This document shows positions 2,714 through 14,204 of a stretch of DNA of 21,896 nt, in pieces. This DNA is from a virus. The notes beneath the pieces were generated by a model. It was not told the DNA's origin and made no database searches. It saw only the letters and a list, made by a program, of their open reading frames with translations. Every line of letters starts with the position of its first letter. Position 1 is the stretch's first letter. Location of the stretch: positions 1 through 21,896 of IMG/VR virus record IMGVR_UViG_3300033571_010386; one strand, given 5' to 3'. The position numbers were made by a program, and so were the translations under genes.

Positions 2714-2730
2714 GGCCGACAAAGTCGGCC
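2714..2730. repeat. Stem-loop copy 1, between convergent genes
   Basis: Arms GGCCGAC (2714-2720) and GTCGGCC (2724-2730) with AAA between. This copy lies between the + gene ending at 2597 and the - gene ending at 2776. It has no promoter beside it, unlike nearly all other copies. Confidence 0.85.
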
Positions 2731-2775
2731 CATCCCAAAGATTAGGGATAGGCTTAGAATTATAAATCAATCAAT

Positions 2776-3000
2776 CTACGCCGGGCCGTAAACCCATTCT
2801 TCTGTGCGATTCCAATAACTTAAAAGCTTAATGAACTTATCGGAAGTATTTGTCCCTAATATTGCAACATAGCATGTATCAGTTGATCCATATTCTAGAT
2901 TGCATCTTCTAAGTTTCCAAACTGTATAGCCCGGAGAATAGAAACTTGCTTCACAATGAACATATCTAACTCCGACTTCTTCTAGCGTTATGAGATCCAT
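2776..3000 (-). CDS. Hypothetical protein, third gene of a three-gene cluster, 74 aa
   Basis: No family recognised. The protein has 74 residues with several Cys and aromatic residues and no clear motif. I chose the ATG at 3000, with AGGTG six bases before it. A GTG at 3009, directly after the upstream stop and preceded by AAGGA, would add three residues and is a real alternative. It is the last of three closely spaced genes (3604 to 2776) that share the promoter at 3823-3850. Confidence 0.65.
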   Translation of the reverse strand: MDLITLEEVGVRYVHCEASFYSPGYTVWKLRRCNLEYGSTDTCYVAILGTNTSDKFIKLLSYWNRTEEWVYGPA

Positions 3001-3009
3001 AGCAGTCAC

Positions 3010-3261
3010 CTACATCCTTTGGTAAGAATCTGAGAAGAGCTTATTATTTTCCATAACAATGTTATAGACAATCCAATGTTTTCTAGTGTCTGACTCTGGT
3101 TCTTCAAAGCCATAACTTACACCGCAACTAGTACCAAATAGTTTTACAGTTGCTAGAACCTGACTACCGTTCATTAGGTAGCATTCTGGATACAACACGT
3201 TTCTATCGTCATCGTAAATAACAGAATACAGTTGTTCTGAACTAAGCTCAATATTCGACAT
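3010..3261 (-). CDS. Hypothetical protein, second gene of the cluster, 83 aa
   Basis: No family recognised. The protein is 83 residues and acidic, with an Asp run (YDDDRN) near residue 20. The ATG at 3261 follows AGGAG with a 6-base spacer. An in-frame ATG at 3276 has no ribosome site. Its start overlaps the end of the preceding gene by 14 bases, so the ribosome site lies inside that gene and translation is probably coupled. Confidence 0.7.
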   Translation of the reverse strand: MSNIELSSEQLYSVIYDDDRNVLYPECYLMNGSQVLATVKLFGTSCGVSYGFEEPESDTRKHWIVYNIVMENNKLFSDSYQRM

Positions 3262-3604
3262 ACCAATCTCCTTCAAATTCTCTTGGGTCTTCGCTATAGT
3301 CTAATTGTACTTCATCGATCTTATTTGTCAATAGATCGAAAAGTTTTTCTCCAATTTCTTGCGGGATTGCTCTACCACTAATAGTAGCACAATCAAAAAT
3401 ACGTTCTTCGTCACTTTCCTCCGGATAGCAATTTTCGGGCGGGCCGTATGTTTGTGCCGGAGTATAGTAACCAGACGACAAAAACTCAATTGTTAGCTCG
3501 CAATCTTGCTCGCTAACTAGCCCTGAAACTAAATCTCGGCACTCAACCGATAGTTCTGAAATATCGATGTGCAGTTTTCCGCGAATGTTTTTCCAGCTAG
3601 ACAT
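3248..3604 (-). CDS. Acidic hypothetical protein after a tRNA-like gene, 118 aa
   Basis: No family recognised. The product has 118 residues, is strongly acidic, and contains a Pro/Tyr-rich stretch (YYTPAQTYGPPENCYP) near the middle. The ATG at 3604 follows GAGAGG with a 6-base spacer. Longer in-frame starts run through the tRNA-like gene at 3633-3703 and are rejected. It is the first protein gene on the transcript from 3823-3850. Confidence 0.75.
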   Translation of the reverse strand: MSSWKNIRGKLHIDISELSVECRDLVSGLVSEQDCELTIEFLSSGYYTPAQTYGPPENCYPEESDEERIFDCATISGRAIPQEIGEKLFDLLTNKIDEVQLDYSEDPREFEGDWYVEY

Positions 3605-3632
3605 AGTTTTCCTCTCAAAAGATATAAAACAA

Positions 3633-3703
3633 GTTCGCTTGTAGGAATCGAACCTACACTCCACCCGTAACGGGTTGCGTCACCAATATACACCAGAAGC
3701 GAA
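3633..3703 (-). tRNA. tRNA-like gene with a 3-nt anticodon loop (possible tRNA pseudogene)
   Basis: On the - strand, acceptor TTCGCTT (3703-3697) pairs perfectly with AAGCGAA (3640-3634). The D stem is GTGT/ACGC with a GG-containing loop. The T arm GTAGG-TTCGATT-CCTAC (3657-3641) is canonical. The anticodon arm is not: ACCCG and CGGGT (3675-3663) pair perfectly around only TTA, where a 5-bp stem with a 7-nt loop is expected. There are also 3 bases, not 2, between acceptor and D stem. The total is about 71 nt, and no isotype can be assigned. It may be a tRNA that lost about four anticodon-loop bases, or a tRNA-shaped RNA with another role. Confidence 0.55.
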
Positions 3704-3822
3704 TGCAACAAAATGAGGTAACGTTGCACCTGAATATTTAGTCGCGGTCAGGATATTCGCGAGAGGTAGCTAGCCTCGCAAAAACAACTGAGTTATCCAA
3801 GCCCTGCTGTTCTTGTATCGTT
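3704..3822 (-). other. Structured leader before the tRNA-like gene, no ORF
   Basis: This is about 110 nt of transcript between promoter and tRNA-like gene. On the - strand it contains a hairpin with arms GCGAGG and CCTCTCGC and another with arms GAATAT and ATATTC. There is no ATG in the - strand reading. I see nothing coding. Confidence 0.4.
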
Positions 3823-3850
3823 ATTATACCAAAACTTTTCGGTATGTCAA
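3823..3850 (-). promoter_or_regulatory. Sigma-70 promoter directly after tRNA-Met
   Basis: -35 TTGACA (3850-3845), 16-bp spacer, -10 TATAAT (3828-3823). The -35 box begins one base after the 3' end of the tRNA-Met gene. No stem-loop is present at this junction; the tRNA takes its place. Confidence 0.85.
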
Positions 3851-3851
3851 G

Positions 3852-3924
3852 TAGGATCGACCGGATTCGAACCGATAACCAAGGGATTATGAGTCCCCTG
3901 CTCTAACCGTTGAGCTACGATCCC
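3852..3924 (-). tRNA. tRNA-Met(CAU) (or Ile(CAU) if modified)
   Basis: Acceptor GGGATCG (3924-3918) pairs with CGATCCT (3859-3853), the first pair being G-U. The D arm is GCTCAACGGTTAGAGC. The anticodon loop CTCATAA gives CAU. The T loop is TTCGAAT and the discriminator is A. CCA is not encoded. The sequence cannot settle whether this is elongator Met or an Ile tRNA needing lysidine. The paired first position argues against initiator Met. It lies 6 bases after the stop of the gene at 3931-4143 and is presumably cotranscribed with it. Confidence 0.93.
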
Positions 3925-3930
3925 ATGAAT

Positions 3931-12980: not shown

Positions 12981-13011
12981 AAAAAAACCGACCCCGCCGA
13001 AGCAGGGCCGG
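12981..13011 (-). terminator. Intrinsic terminator after the 107-aa gene
   Basis: On the - strand a 10-bp stem with two G-U pairs and a TTCG loop (13011-12988) is followed by seven T residues. Confidence 0.88.
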
Positions 13012-13034
13012 TATTTGTTTTGTTGTTACAGGAA

Positions 13035-13358
13035 TCATTCTGGATGTTCTGCATGTTCTCGTTTATGCCGATCTACAATTGCACAACACGCAATCACAAC
13101 ATCATGATCATCGATTGCATTCCAGATTGCAATATCAAAAACTCCGGGATTGTCTTTGAATTCTGCAAAAATCCATTGCATTTTGAGATGCAGTTCTACG
13201 CCGTTCTCTGCAAAATCGTATGCAATGCAGTTGCGGACACCTTGCGATAGCAAGAACGCTTCAACCATTTGTTCAGGTTCAAGTGTTGCAATCATCTTGC
13301 CTAGTGTATTCGCCAACGATGCCATTCCTACAAATTCGCTGTAAGCTACTTGCGACAT
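13035..13358 (-). CDS. Hypothetical protein, 107 aa
   Basis: No family recognised. The protein has an Ala/Leu-rich helical N-terminus, a central beta-like part (GVELHLKMQWIFAEF) and a His-rich end. The ATG at 13358 follows AAAGGG with an 8-base spacer. It starts MSQV, as does the 142-aa gene from its second Met, and the leaders are similar, which suggests recombination at the 5' end. A 5'-terminal hairpin with loop GAGTT lies at 13411-13386. Confidence 0.78.
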   Translation of the reverse strand: MSQVAYSEFVGMASLANTLGKMIATLEPEQMVEAFLLSQGVRNCIAYDFAENGVELHLKMQWIFAEFKDNPGVFDIAIWNAIDDHDVVIACCAIVDRHKREHAEHPE

Positions 13359-13418
13359 ATTTCAAACCCTTTCGAAAAAACTTTTGTTGGCTTGGAACTC
13401 CCAAACCCAACACAAACC

Positions 13419-13489
13419 AATCTACCATATATTCGACATAATGCAATAGCTAACTACAATATTTCTTCACGAGACCGACAAAGTCGGCC
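13419..13489 (-). promoter_or_regulatory. Cassette 17 (type B): stem-loop plus promoter
   Basis: -35 TTGCAT 13446-13441, 16-bp spacer, -10 TAGATT 13424-13419. Stem-loop arms 13473-13479 and 13483-13489 with AAA between. The boxes are weaker than in type A cassettes. Confidence 0.7.
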
Positions 13490-13530
13490 CATCCTCCTTT
13501 CAGATTCAGGGCCGACCTATCGATCTTATA

Positions 13531-13665
13531 CTAATCCTTGGTAGGCGTAAATTCTATTGCGAATTCATACTTGCCATGATCTTTAGGTATAGCCTTTAGA
13601 GCTACCTTATCTATAGCACGGCATCCTACCAAAGATACTAAAGCCAACAAAACAACTAAACGCAT
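13531..13665 (-). CDS. Small predicted lipoprotein, 44 aa
   Basis: The frame begins MRLVVLLALVSLVGC: a basic residue, a hydrophobic stretch and the lipobox L-V-G-C with Cys at residue 15. Signal peptidase II would leave a 30-residue lipid-anchored peptide starting at that Cys. The ATG at 13665 follows AAAGGA with an 8-base spacer, and the gene has its own promoter (13717-13745), so it is well supported despite its size. Small phage lipoproteins include outer-membrane spanins and superinfection-exclusion proteins. No lysis genes are seen nearby, so exclusion or envelope modification is a guess. Confidence 0.72.
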   Translation of the reverse strand: MRLVVLLALVSLVGCRAIDKVALKAIPKDHGKYEFAIEFTPTKD

Positions 13666-13716
13666 GATCAGAATCCTTTCTGAGAAACTAACTACCGGAA
13701 CTACCGGACTGCTAAC

Positions 13717-13787
13717 ATCGTACTATATATATCGACACAATGCAAGAGATACTTTAACATATCTAGCCGAGACCGACAAAGTCGGCC
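13717..13787 (-). promoter_or_regulatory. Cassette 18 (type B): stem-loop plus promoter for the lipoprotein
   Basis: -35 TTGCAT 13745-13740, 17-bp spacer, -10 TACGAT 13722-13717. Stem-loop arms 13771-13777 and 13781-13787 with AAA between. The 5' leader has a short hairpin CCGG-TAGTT-CCGG (13707-13695). Confidence 0.7.
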
Positions 13788-13831
13788 CACCCATACAGAT
13801 GAACCGACTTTTTCTTTTTGCTGACTGAATG

Positions 13832-14077
13832 CTATACCAATGGATTCCTAATAAAATCATCTCCATCCGGATATGCCACTACGGTTCTCGGAAAATTCTT
13901 GTATAACCGATTTAATTCGGTGATATTAAAACCAATTTCCTTTTCGATGCAGTACATTTCATAAGGAAGAAGGTCTGGCAGTATTTTTGTACCGTGTCTA
14001 TTTAATGCCAAAAGAGCCAACACAAGATCCTCTGCTTCAATCCAAACCTTCTTAACAACAACCAAATTTGCCATCAT
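13832..14077 (-). CDS. Hypothetical protein, 81 aa
   Basis: No family recognised. A Val/Leu-rich N-terminal part (LVVVKKVWIEAEDLVLALLALNRHG) precedes a mixed C-terminus. The ATG at 14077 is 5 bases after AAGGA; the adjacent ATG at 14074 gives 8 bases and is equally possible. The longer frame starting at 14134 overlaps the -10 box and is rejected. The leader starts with a hairpin, TTCGG-GAGTG-CCGAA inside longer arms (14126-14101). Confidence 0.75.
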   Translation of the reverse strand: MMANLVVVKKVWIEAEDLVLALLALNRHGTKILPDLLPYEMYCIEKEIGFNITELNRLYKNFPRTVVAYPDGDDFIRNPLV

Positions 14078-14133
14078 CAAGTTCCTTAAAAGGAGCCTTT
14101 GTCGATTCGGCACTCCCGAACCCGACACAAACA

Positions 14134-14204
14134 ACTATAGACTATTTATCGTCATAAGTCAACAATAACTTTAACATTTAGCCACGAGACCGACAATGTC
14201 GGCC
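14134..14204 (-). promoter_or_regulatory. Cassette 19 (type B): stem-loop plus promoter
   Basis: -35 TTGACT 14162-14157, 17-bp spacer, -10 TATAGT 14139-14134. Stem-loop arms 14188-14194 and 14198-14204 with AAT between. This is the rightmost copy. Confidence 0.78.

Follow-up and report, generated by a model that had tools for sequence, protein, structure and literature searches.

The DNA examined here is IMG/VR virus record IMGVR_UViG_3300033571_010386, positions 1 to 21,896 (21,896 bases; hereafter the window), in which a 20-nucleotide (nt) stem-loop sequence, the core, recurs 19 times between small early genes. The core is nearly invariant, is followed at most junctions by a predicted promoter, and marks the points at which whole cassettes have been gained, lost and relocated between closely related phages. 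We consider it likely that the core serves as the joint common to exchangeable early-gene cassettes arranged in an array. A shuffling role had been part of the original prediction, made from the letters of the window, and was borne out by the comparison with relatives.

The stem-loop array

The pattern GRCCGACNNNGTCGGCC had 19 forward matches in the window, compared to none for a reversed-pattern control, so the array did not arise by chance. In gene sense (the − strand), the core reads GGCCGAC-NNN-GTCGGYC-TCG, and all 19 copies have 7-bp arms and a 3-nt loop. Every copy sits exactly where it had been predicted, flanked by − strand genes, 3' of one gene and usually ahead of the next gene's promoter. 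The copies with a TTC loop lie at 4259–4275, 5581–5597, 6230–6246, 8361–8377, 8866–8882, 9274–9290, 9778–9794 and 10168–10184, those with TTT at 2714–2730 and 10683–10699, and one with GTA at 7745–7761; these 11 copies have GGCC in the variable arm. The remaining eight, at 11235–11251, 11658–11674, 12142–12158, 12769–12785, 12942–12958, 13473–13489, 13771–13787 and 14188–14204, have GGTC (GACC on the + strand), as predicted. ATT completes the set of loops in the window, and AAA is additionally found in relatives.

Two records, G001 and G004, have terminases 100% identical to that of the window, represent the same phage and carry the same array. The array is also present in G002 (terminase 90% identical) and G003 (87%; 168.8 kb), which are ≈95% identical to each other, and is confined to the early region in all of them. 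The core carriers thus amount to three independent genomes. Among the 52 copies from the window, G002 and G003, positions 1–7, 11–15 and 18–20 did not vary at all. Position 16 was C in 27 copies and T in 25, position 17 was T in a single copy, and the unpaired TCG that follows the stem was present in 52/52. Conservation dropped to background at position 21, and the 5' flank (RRRTG) was less conserved than the core.

Cassette gain, loss and movement

The segments between stem-loops in the three genomes were numbered as cassettes (W for the window, G2 and G3 for G002 and G003), and the two halves of each were mapped separately. Both halves nearly always mapped to one and the same cassette elsewhere, while the neighbours changed. 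G002 and G003 differ by six whole promoter–gene cassettes: G3_4 and G3_11 are missing from G002, and G2_6, G2_8, G2_10 and G2_16 are missing from G003. All 12 ends of these differences lie inside the stem-loop core. At the six resulting joints, the upstream 40 nt matched one parent junction at 29–40 positions, compared to 12–20 for the other parent, and the downstream 40 nt matched that other parent at 36–40 positions, compared to 13–28; the switch occurs at the core. In a seventh case, the window cassette at 9835–10047 is missing in G003, and the corresponding G003 joint takes its upstream flank from the junction at 10168–10184 and its downstream flank from that at 9778–9794. Another cassette has moved: W_7 corresponds to G3_4, which lies on the other side of W_5, and the stem-loop at 11658–11674 opens the cassette whose order differs in G003.

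In a hand-curated tally, made from alignment blocks, of differences of at least 50 nt, 13 of their 20 ends, which come in pairs, fell no more than 10 nt from a core. Cores with 10-nt margins make up 5.5% of the region (P ≈ 2.5e-12), and the clustering persisted when only intergenic ends were allowed (P = 5e-8 to 6e-6). Counted as events, both ends were at cores in 6/10. The core itself accounts for 55 of the 66 repeated 15-mers in the region, and none of the exchanges fell at the CCCCCCGAAAGGGGGG repeat of the terminators.

Every relative is an IMG/VR contig, and the cassette differences might in principle be chimaeric assemblies joined at a short repeat. We regard this as most improbable, however: the repeat is only ≈20 nt, below read length, with unique sequence on either side, single cassettes differ within otherwise intact ≈95% synteny, and the window holds independent versions of several of the differing cassettes.

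Recombination route

The two parents had the same loop in 5/6 events, which fits homologous exchange; compared to site-specific recombination, exchange across ≈20–25 nt of homology is the simpler reading. G003 encodes a 677-residue protein (G003:C1:111497–113530; L217:1498–3531) whose C-terminal half matches UvsX/RecA and whose N-terminal half matches families of helicase/primase-like ATPases, possibly a fusion judging from these matches, as well as an exonuclease-like protein. The RecA/UvsX-like protein is a plausible enzyme for the exchange. The precise exchange of cassettes within a hairpin-forming core would also be expected if the core were a site-specific recombination site like those of integron gene cassettes. 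However, neither tyrosine (PF00589) nor serine (PF00239) recombinases were matched in G003 (168.8 kb), G006 (a more distant relative, below), G001 or G002, records that are perhaps incomplete, although the controls were positive; together with the agreement between parental loops, this makes such a site very unlikely.

Promoters and terminators at the junctions

The predicted layout of a stem-loop followed by a promoter was found at most junctions. A predicted sigma-70-type promoter, mostly TTGACA-16-TATAAT and matching the consensus at no fewer than nine of 12 positions, lies downstream of the stem-loop at 16/19 window junctions. For example, the promoter at 10606–10633 (−) is a 12/12 match with its −35 box at +49 from the stem-loop at 10683. 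The distance from stem-loop to −35 box is 48–50 nt for most GGCC-class copies and 25–26 nt for most GGTC-class copies, and a few junctions have the box at 14, 71 or 87 nt. Helical phasing of the core relative to the promoter was considered and is not supported by these distances (14, 25, 49, 71 and 87).

The near-constant spacing of 49 or 25 nt, together with the perfect 7-3-7 dyad and the invariant TCG, is what one might expect of a DNA operator bound by a phage or host regulator of all the early promoters. Against such an operator, the distances of 14, 71 and 87 nt also occur, and a spacer that has been copied can account for a constant distance; the loops vary freely, one half-site is altered in 25/52 copies, and the distant relative G005 has an unrelated sequence at the same place. 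Overall, we find an operator unlikely.

A U-tract intrinsic terminator is present at five window junctions (12942, 12142, 11658, 11235 and 10683), ending 24–38 nt upstream of the stem-loop, in line with the five or more that had been predicted. The stem-loops themselves, judged from sequence, have no U-tract of their own in any of the 19 copies (1–4 T in the following 9 nt), as was also predicted. By this measure, a stem-loop does not by itself make an intrinsic terminator, and the earlier view was supported to that extent.

The occurrence of C(GAA)G among the + strand loops suggested a further candidate, an N4-like hairpin promoter for a virion RNA polymerase. This candidate was set aside because complete sigma-70 promoters adjoin the stem-loops (a virion RNA polymerase was not searched for); a further point against it is that an A-C mismatch breaks the + strand stem in eight copies.

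A separate hairpin with a GAGTT-like loop was observed in the 5' leader, by the predicted transcript start, near 14120, 13405, 12075 and 11170 (−) and in the G002 and G003 orthologs. Its arms differ yet pair (GTCAGG/CCTGAC, GTCGGG/CCCGAT, GGTTCGG/CCGAATC, TCCGG/CCGGA), which looks like compensatory change; it is perhaps a 5' mRNA stabiliser. Between the stem-loops at 12769 and 12942 lies a 156-nt cassette (12786–12941, −) with a promoter and a repeated AGGTATAATCG, and without a clear gene, which is kept in G002 and G003 and could possibly specify a small RNA or a leader peptide.

Evidence for a role in RNA

The original prediction held that selection acts on the − strand RNA, since the eight GACC copies give an A-C mismatch in + strand RNA and a G-U pair in − strand RNA. 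The eight copies form one contiguous sub-family, linked to the class of their downstream flank, and probably stem from one event. A second event, GGCT (GGCCGACTTCGTCGGCT) in G003 at 59574, again gives G-U on the sense strand. Thus, pairing on the sense strand is kept in both events, but the argument itself is weak: any transition in a stem leaves a G-U pair in the RNA of one strand and an A-C mismatch in that of the other, which makes the choice of strand close to a coin flip, and with perhaps two events, p ≈ 0.25. A C-to-T bias on the sense strand could yield the same two changes. A covariation check on the 52 copies from the window, G002 and G003 revealed no compensatory arm change; only two pairs vary, both by C/T on the sense strand, with pairing kept.

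A different kind of evidence came from the sequences just upstream of the stem-loop. Many junctions lack a U-tract terminator but have an upstream cassette that ends in a sequence pairing with the flank and 5' arm of the stem-loop that follows. In the window, the hairpin formed by GCCCACCCCC and GGGGGTGGGC (9792–9818, −) has a 3' strand that extends into the beginning of the 5' arm of the stem-loop; G003 has an equivalent pair in GTTGGTCCACCCTT and AGGGGTGGGCCGAC, and G002 has one in GTCGGTCTATCC and GGGTGGGCCGAC. Helices of this arm-sharing kind exceeded shuffled sequences at the 5% level at 24/52 junctions when G-U pairs were allowed, compared to 12 when A-C was allowed instead, counts that include orthologous junctions and are hence non-independent. 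Among unique helices, picked regardless of their G-U content, the non-Watson–Crick cells comprised 39 G-U and 8 A-C, where shuffles give a ratio of 2:1 (estimated p ≈ 0.01). An arm-sharing helix was found at 1/16 junctions with a true terminator and at 23/36 without; a looser pattern flagged a U-tract at five of the 24 helix junctions, of which four were judged to be T-rich stretches rather than terminators. The sequences thus provide moderate evidence that the stem-loop region likely has a role in sense RNA, but this support employs the 5' arm in a hairpin other than the stem-loop originally proposed.

These observations bear on the strongest alternative, in which the core owes its conservation entirely to a signalling function in RNA or transcription (an insulator, factor-dependent terminator, pause site or 3'-end protector situated between strong promoters) and breakpoints fall there only because it is the longest repeat. 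We give this nearly an even chance. The sharp 20-nt invariance, which includes the unpaired TCG, the enrichment of sense-strand G-U in the arm-sharing hairpins and the nearly constant promoter spacing all favour it; the lack of a U-tract, the presence of a terminator ahead of five copies and the absence of covariation in the arms do not. Such a signal is compatible with the breakpoint data and may be half of the truth.

A distant relative with a different sequence

Records G005 and G006 represent one phage, identical across the 60 kb compared, and a relative at 60% identity. G005 has zero copies of the core; instead, an unrelated GC-rich hairpin block is present eight times, in six cases 47–69 nt ahead of a promoter matching at no fewer than ten of 12 positions. 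A search with this hairpin block gave matches in G005 and G006 only. To judge from these sequences, the architecture is common to G005 and the core carriers and the sequence is not. In locus L117 (G005:60000–79999), repeated triple GC-rich hairpin blocks were observed around GCCGGGCCGGCCGGGC, ahead of early promoters.

Database searches and other features of the window

No Pfam match was found for the ten cassette proteins examined, and annotated phages gave no nucleotide match to the window. The Rfam matches in the window at gathering score were two tRNAs and a Twister-sister self-cleaving ribozyme, and none fell over any stem-loop. The ribozyme (7856–7931, −; 40.9 bits, cut-off 34) lies in the 3' region of the gene at 7945–8226; its ortholog in G003 scored 46.4, and the ribozyme moves with a cassette that G002 lacks. 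A scan of 84,980 prokaryote species with TGGGCCGACNNNGTCGGYCTCG found 82 stretches with one match each and no host array; the single matches are read as chance because almost all are in organisms taken as high-GC. A search for other joint families (7-bp, 3-nt hairpins followed by TCG) yielded nothing but GTCCGAATAATTCGGACTCG, one hairpin orthologous between G001 and G003, and no array. A lone hairpin at 5–24 (−), GTCCGAA-TAA-TTCGGAC-TCG, has the 7-3-7-TCG layout with arms that differ from the core, and is kept in G003 at 66094.

The left two thirds of the window hold leftward small early genes and the right third rightward genes, including those for a head maturation protease and the large terminase subunit. 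Shortly before these two is a gene resembling nucleotide-sugar epimerases or GDP-mannose dehydratases (16063–17166, +).

Discussion

In the arrangement that we propose, each cassette would consist of a joint, an A/T-rich spacer, a strong host sigma-70 promoter, a small gene and a 3' hairpin, followed by the next joint. Homologous recombination from joint to joint would insert, delete or move whole transcription units and leave the genes unbroken, probably through the phage's own RecA/UvsX-like protein; it would be directed to the joints by the core, the principal sequence common to neighbouring cassettes that are otherwise unrelated. In sense RNA, the joint would also fall within the hairpin region at the 3' end of the preceding unit, and cassette ends would tend to have either a U-tract terminator ahead of the joint or a strand that pairs with the 5' flank and arm of the joint. 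The hairpin presumably ends or protects transcripts, and would so insulate each promoter. Selection may maintain the core for the shuffling itself or for its part in RNA, in which case shuffling would be a by-product.

A more tentative extension, which we put forward as a possibility, though less likely than not, is a plug-in array: the joint would serve as a shared RNA arm, each incoming gene would bring a 3' strand able to pair with it, and one crossover would rebuild both a transcript-ending or -protecting hairpin and a promoter, with lineages having evolved their own joint sequences for the same architecture.

Several observations weigh against the proposed arrangement of cassettes and joints. 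That the core is the principal ectopic homology is enough to explain the breakpoints, with no need for a specialised part in shuffling. Some differences lie away from the core (indels of 206 and 65 nt and, in G003, a deletion of 452 nt), one case among the structural differences is mixed, and there are chimaeras at the level of promoters or terminators, such as W_6. Compensatory change, which would speak for a function of the stem-loop itself in RNA, was absent from the arms, and a long arm-sharing helix would out-compete the 7-bp stem-loop in RNA. The genomes are metagenome assemblies throughout, and the core is known from three independent ones only.

The layout had been likened to the PeSL (promoter-early stem-loop) cassettes of T4-type phages. 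Going by titles cited in PMC4503421, PeSLs are promoter–terminator motifs through which modules are shuffled in T4-like phages; the papers in question (Arbiol et al. 2010; Comeau et al. 2014) are cited there and in PMC5348500. As in T4-type phages, many copies of a stem-loop with an early sigma-70-like promoter are found here between small early genes in a plastic region, and genes have been gained, lost and moved between copies. However, the T4-type label itself was not supported: the major capsid family PF07068 (gp23) was not found in G003 or G006, although the T4 control was positive. Furthermore, the stem-loop here is, by sequence, not an intrinsic terminator, its core is one nearly invariant 20-nt sequence, and many cassette ends pair with the arm of the next joint. 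By analogy, the array appears to work like a PeSL system, yet is not a strict member. In the PeSL case, Arbiol et al. reportedly described, in 2010, small circular DNAs from recombination between nearby elements.

At one end of the genome of the archaeal myovirus HGTV-1, a large tailed virus, most open reading frames are preceded by a conserved motif that is promoter-like and contains an inverted repeat, and that was compared with PeSLs (PMC3950731). The present array resembles it in this respect; the promoters here are of bacterial type, and exchange at the motif is seen between relatives, whereas in HGTV-1 it was proposed. Campylobacter group II phages such as CP21 have repeat regions of 1–2.9 kb between modules of 28–55 kb (PMC4546147), and there, too, repeats occur where modules of a large phage were rearranged, although here they are 20-nt hairpins between single genes. 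Integron-type gene cassettes differ in that no tyrosine recombinase was found in the four records searched.

The array extends the shuffling of single genes at intergenic stem-loops beyond the T4-type phages, at nucleotide resolution between close relatives, and makes a defined 20-nt joint available for testing. It also offers a rule for searches, in that near-identical hairpin arrays at a fixed distance ahead of consensus promoters may mark exchangeable cassettes, and it is relevant to the way in which phages take up and trade small early genes with their regulation undisturbed.

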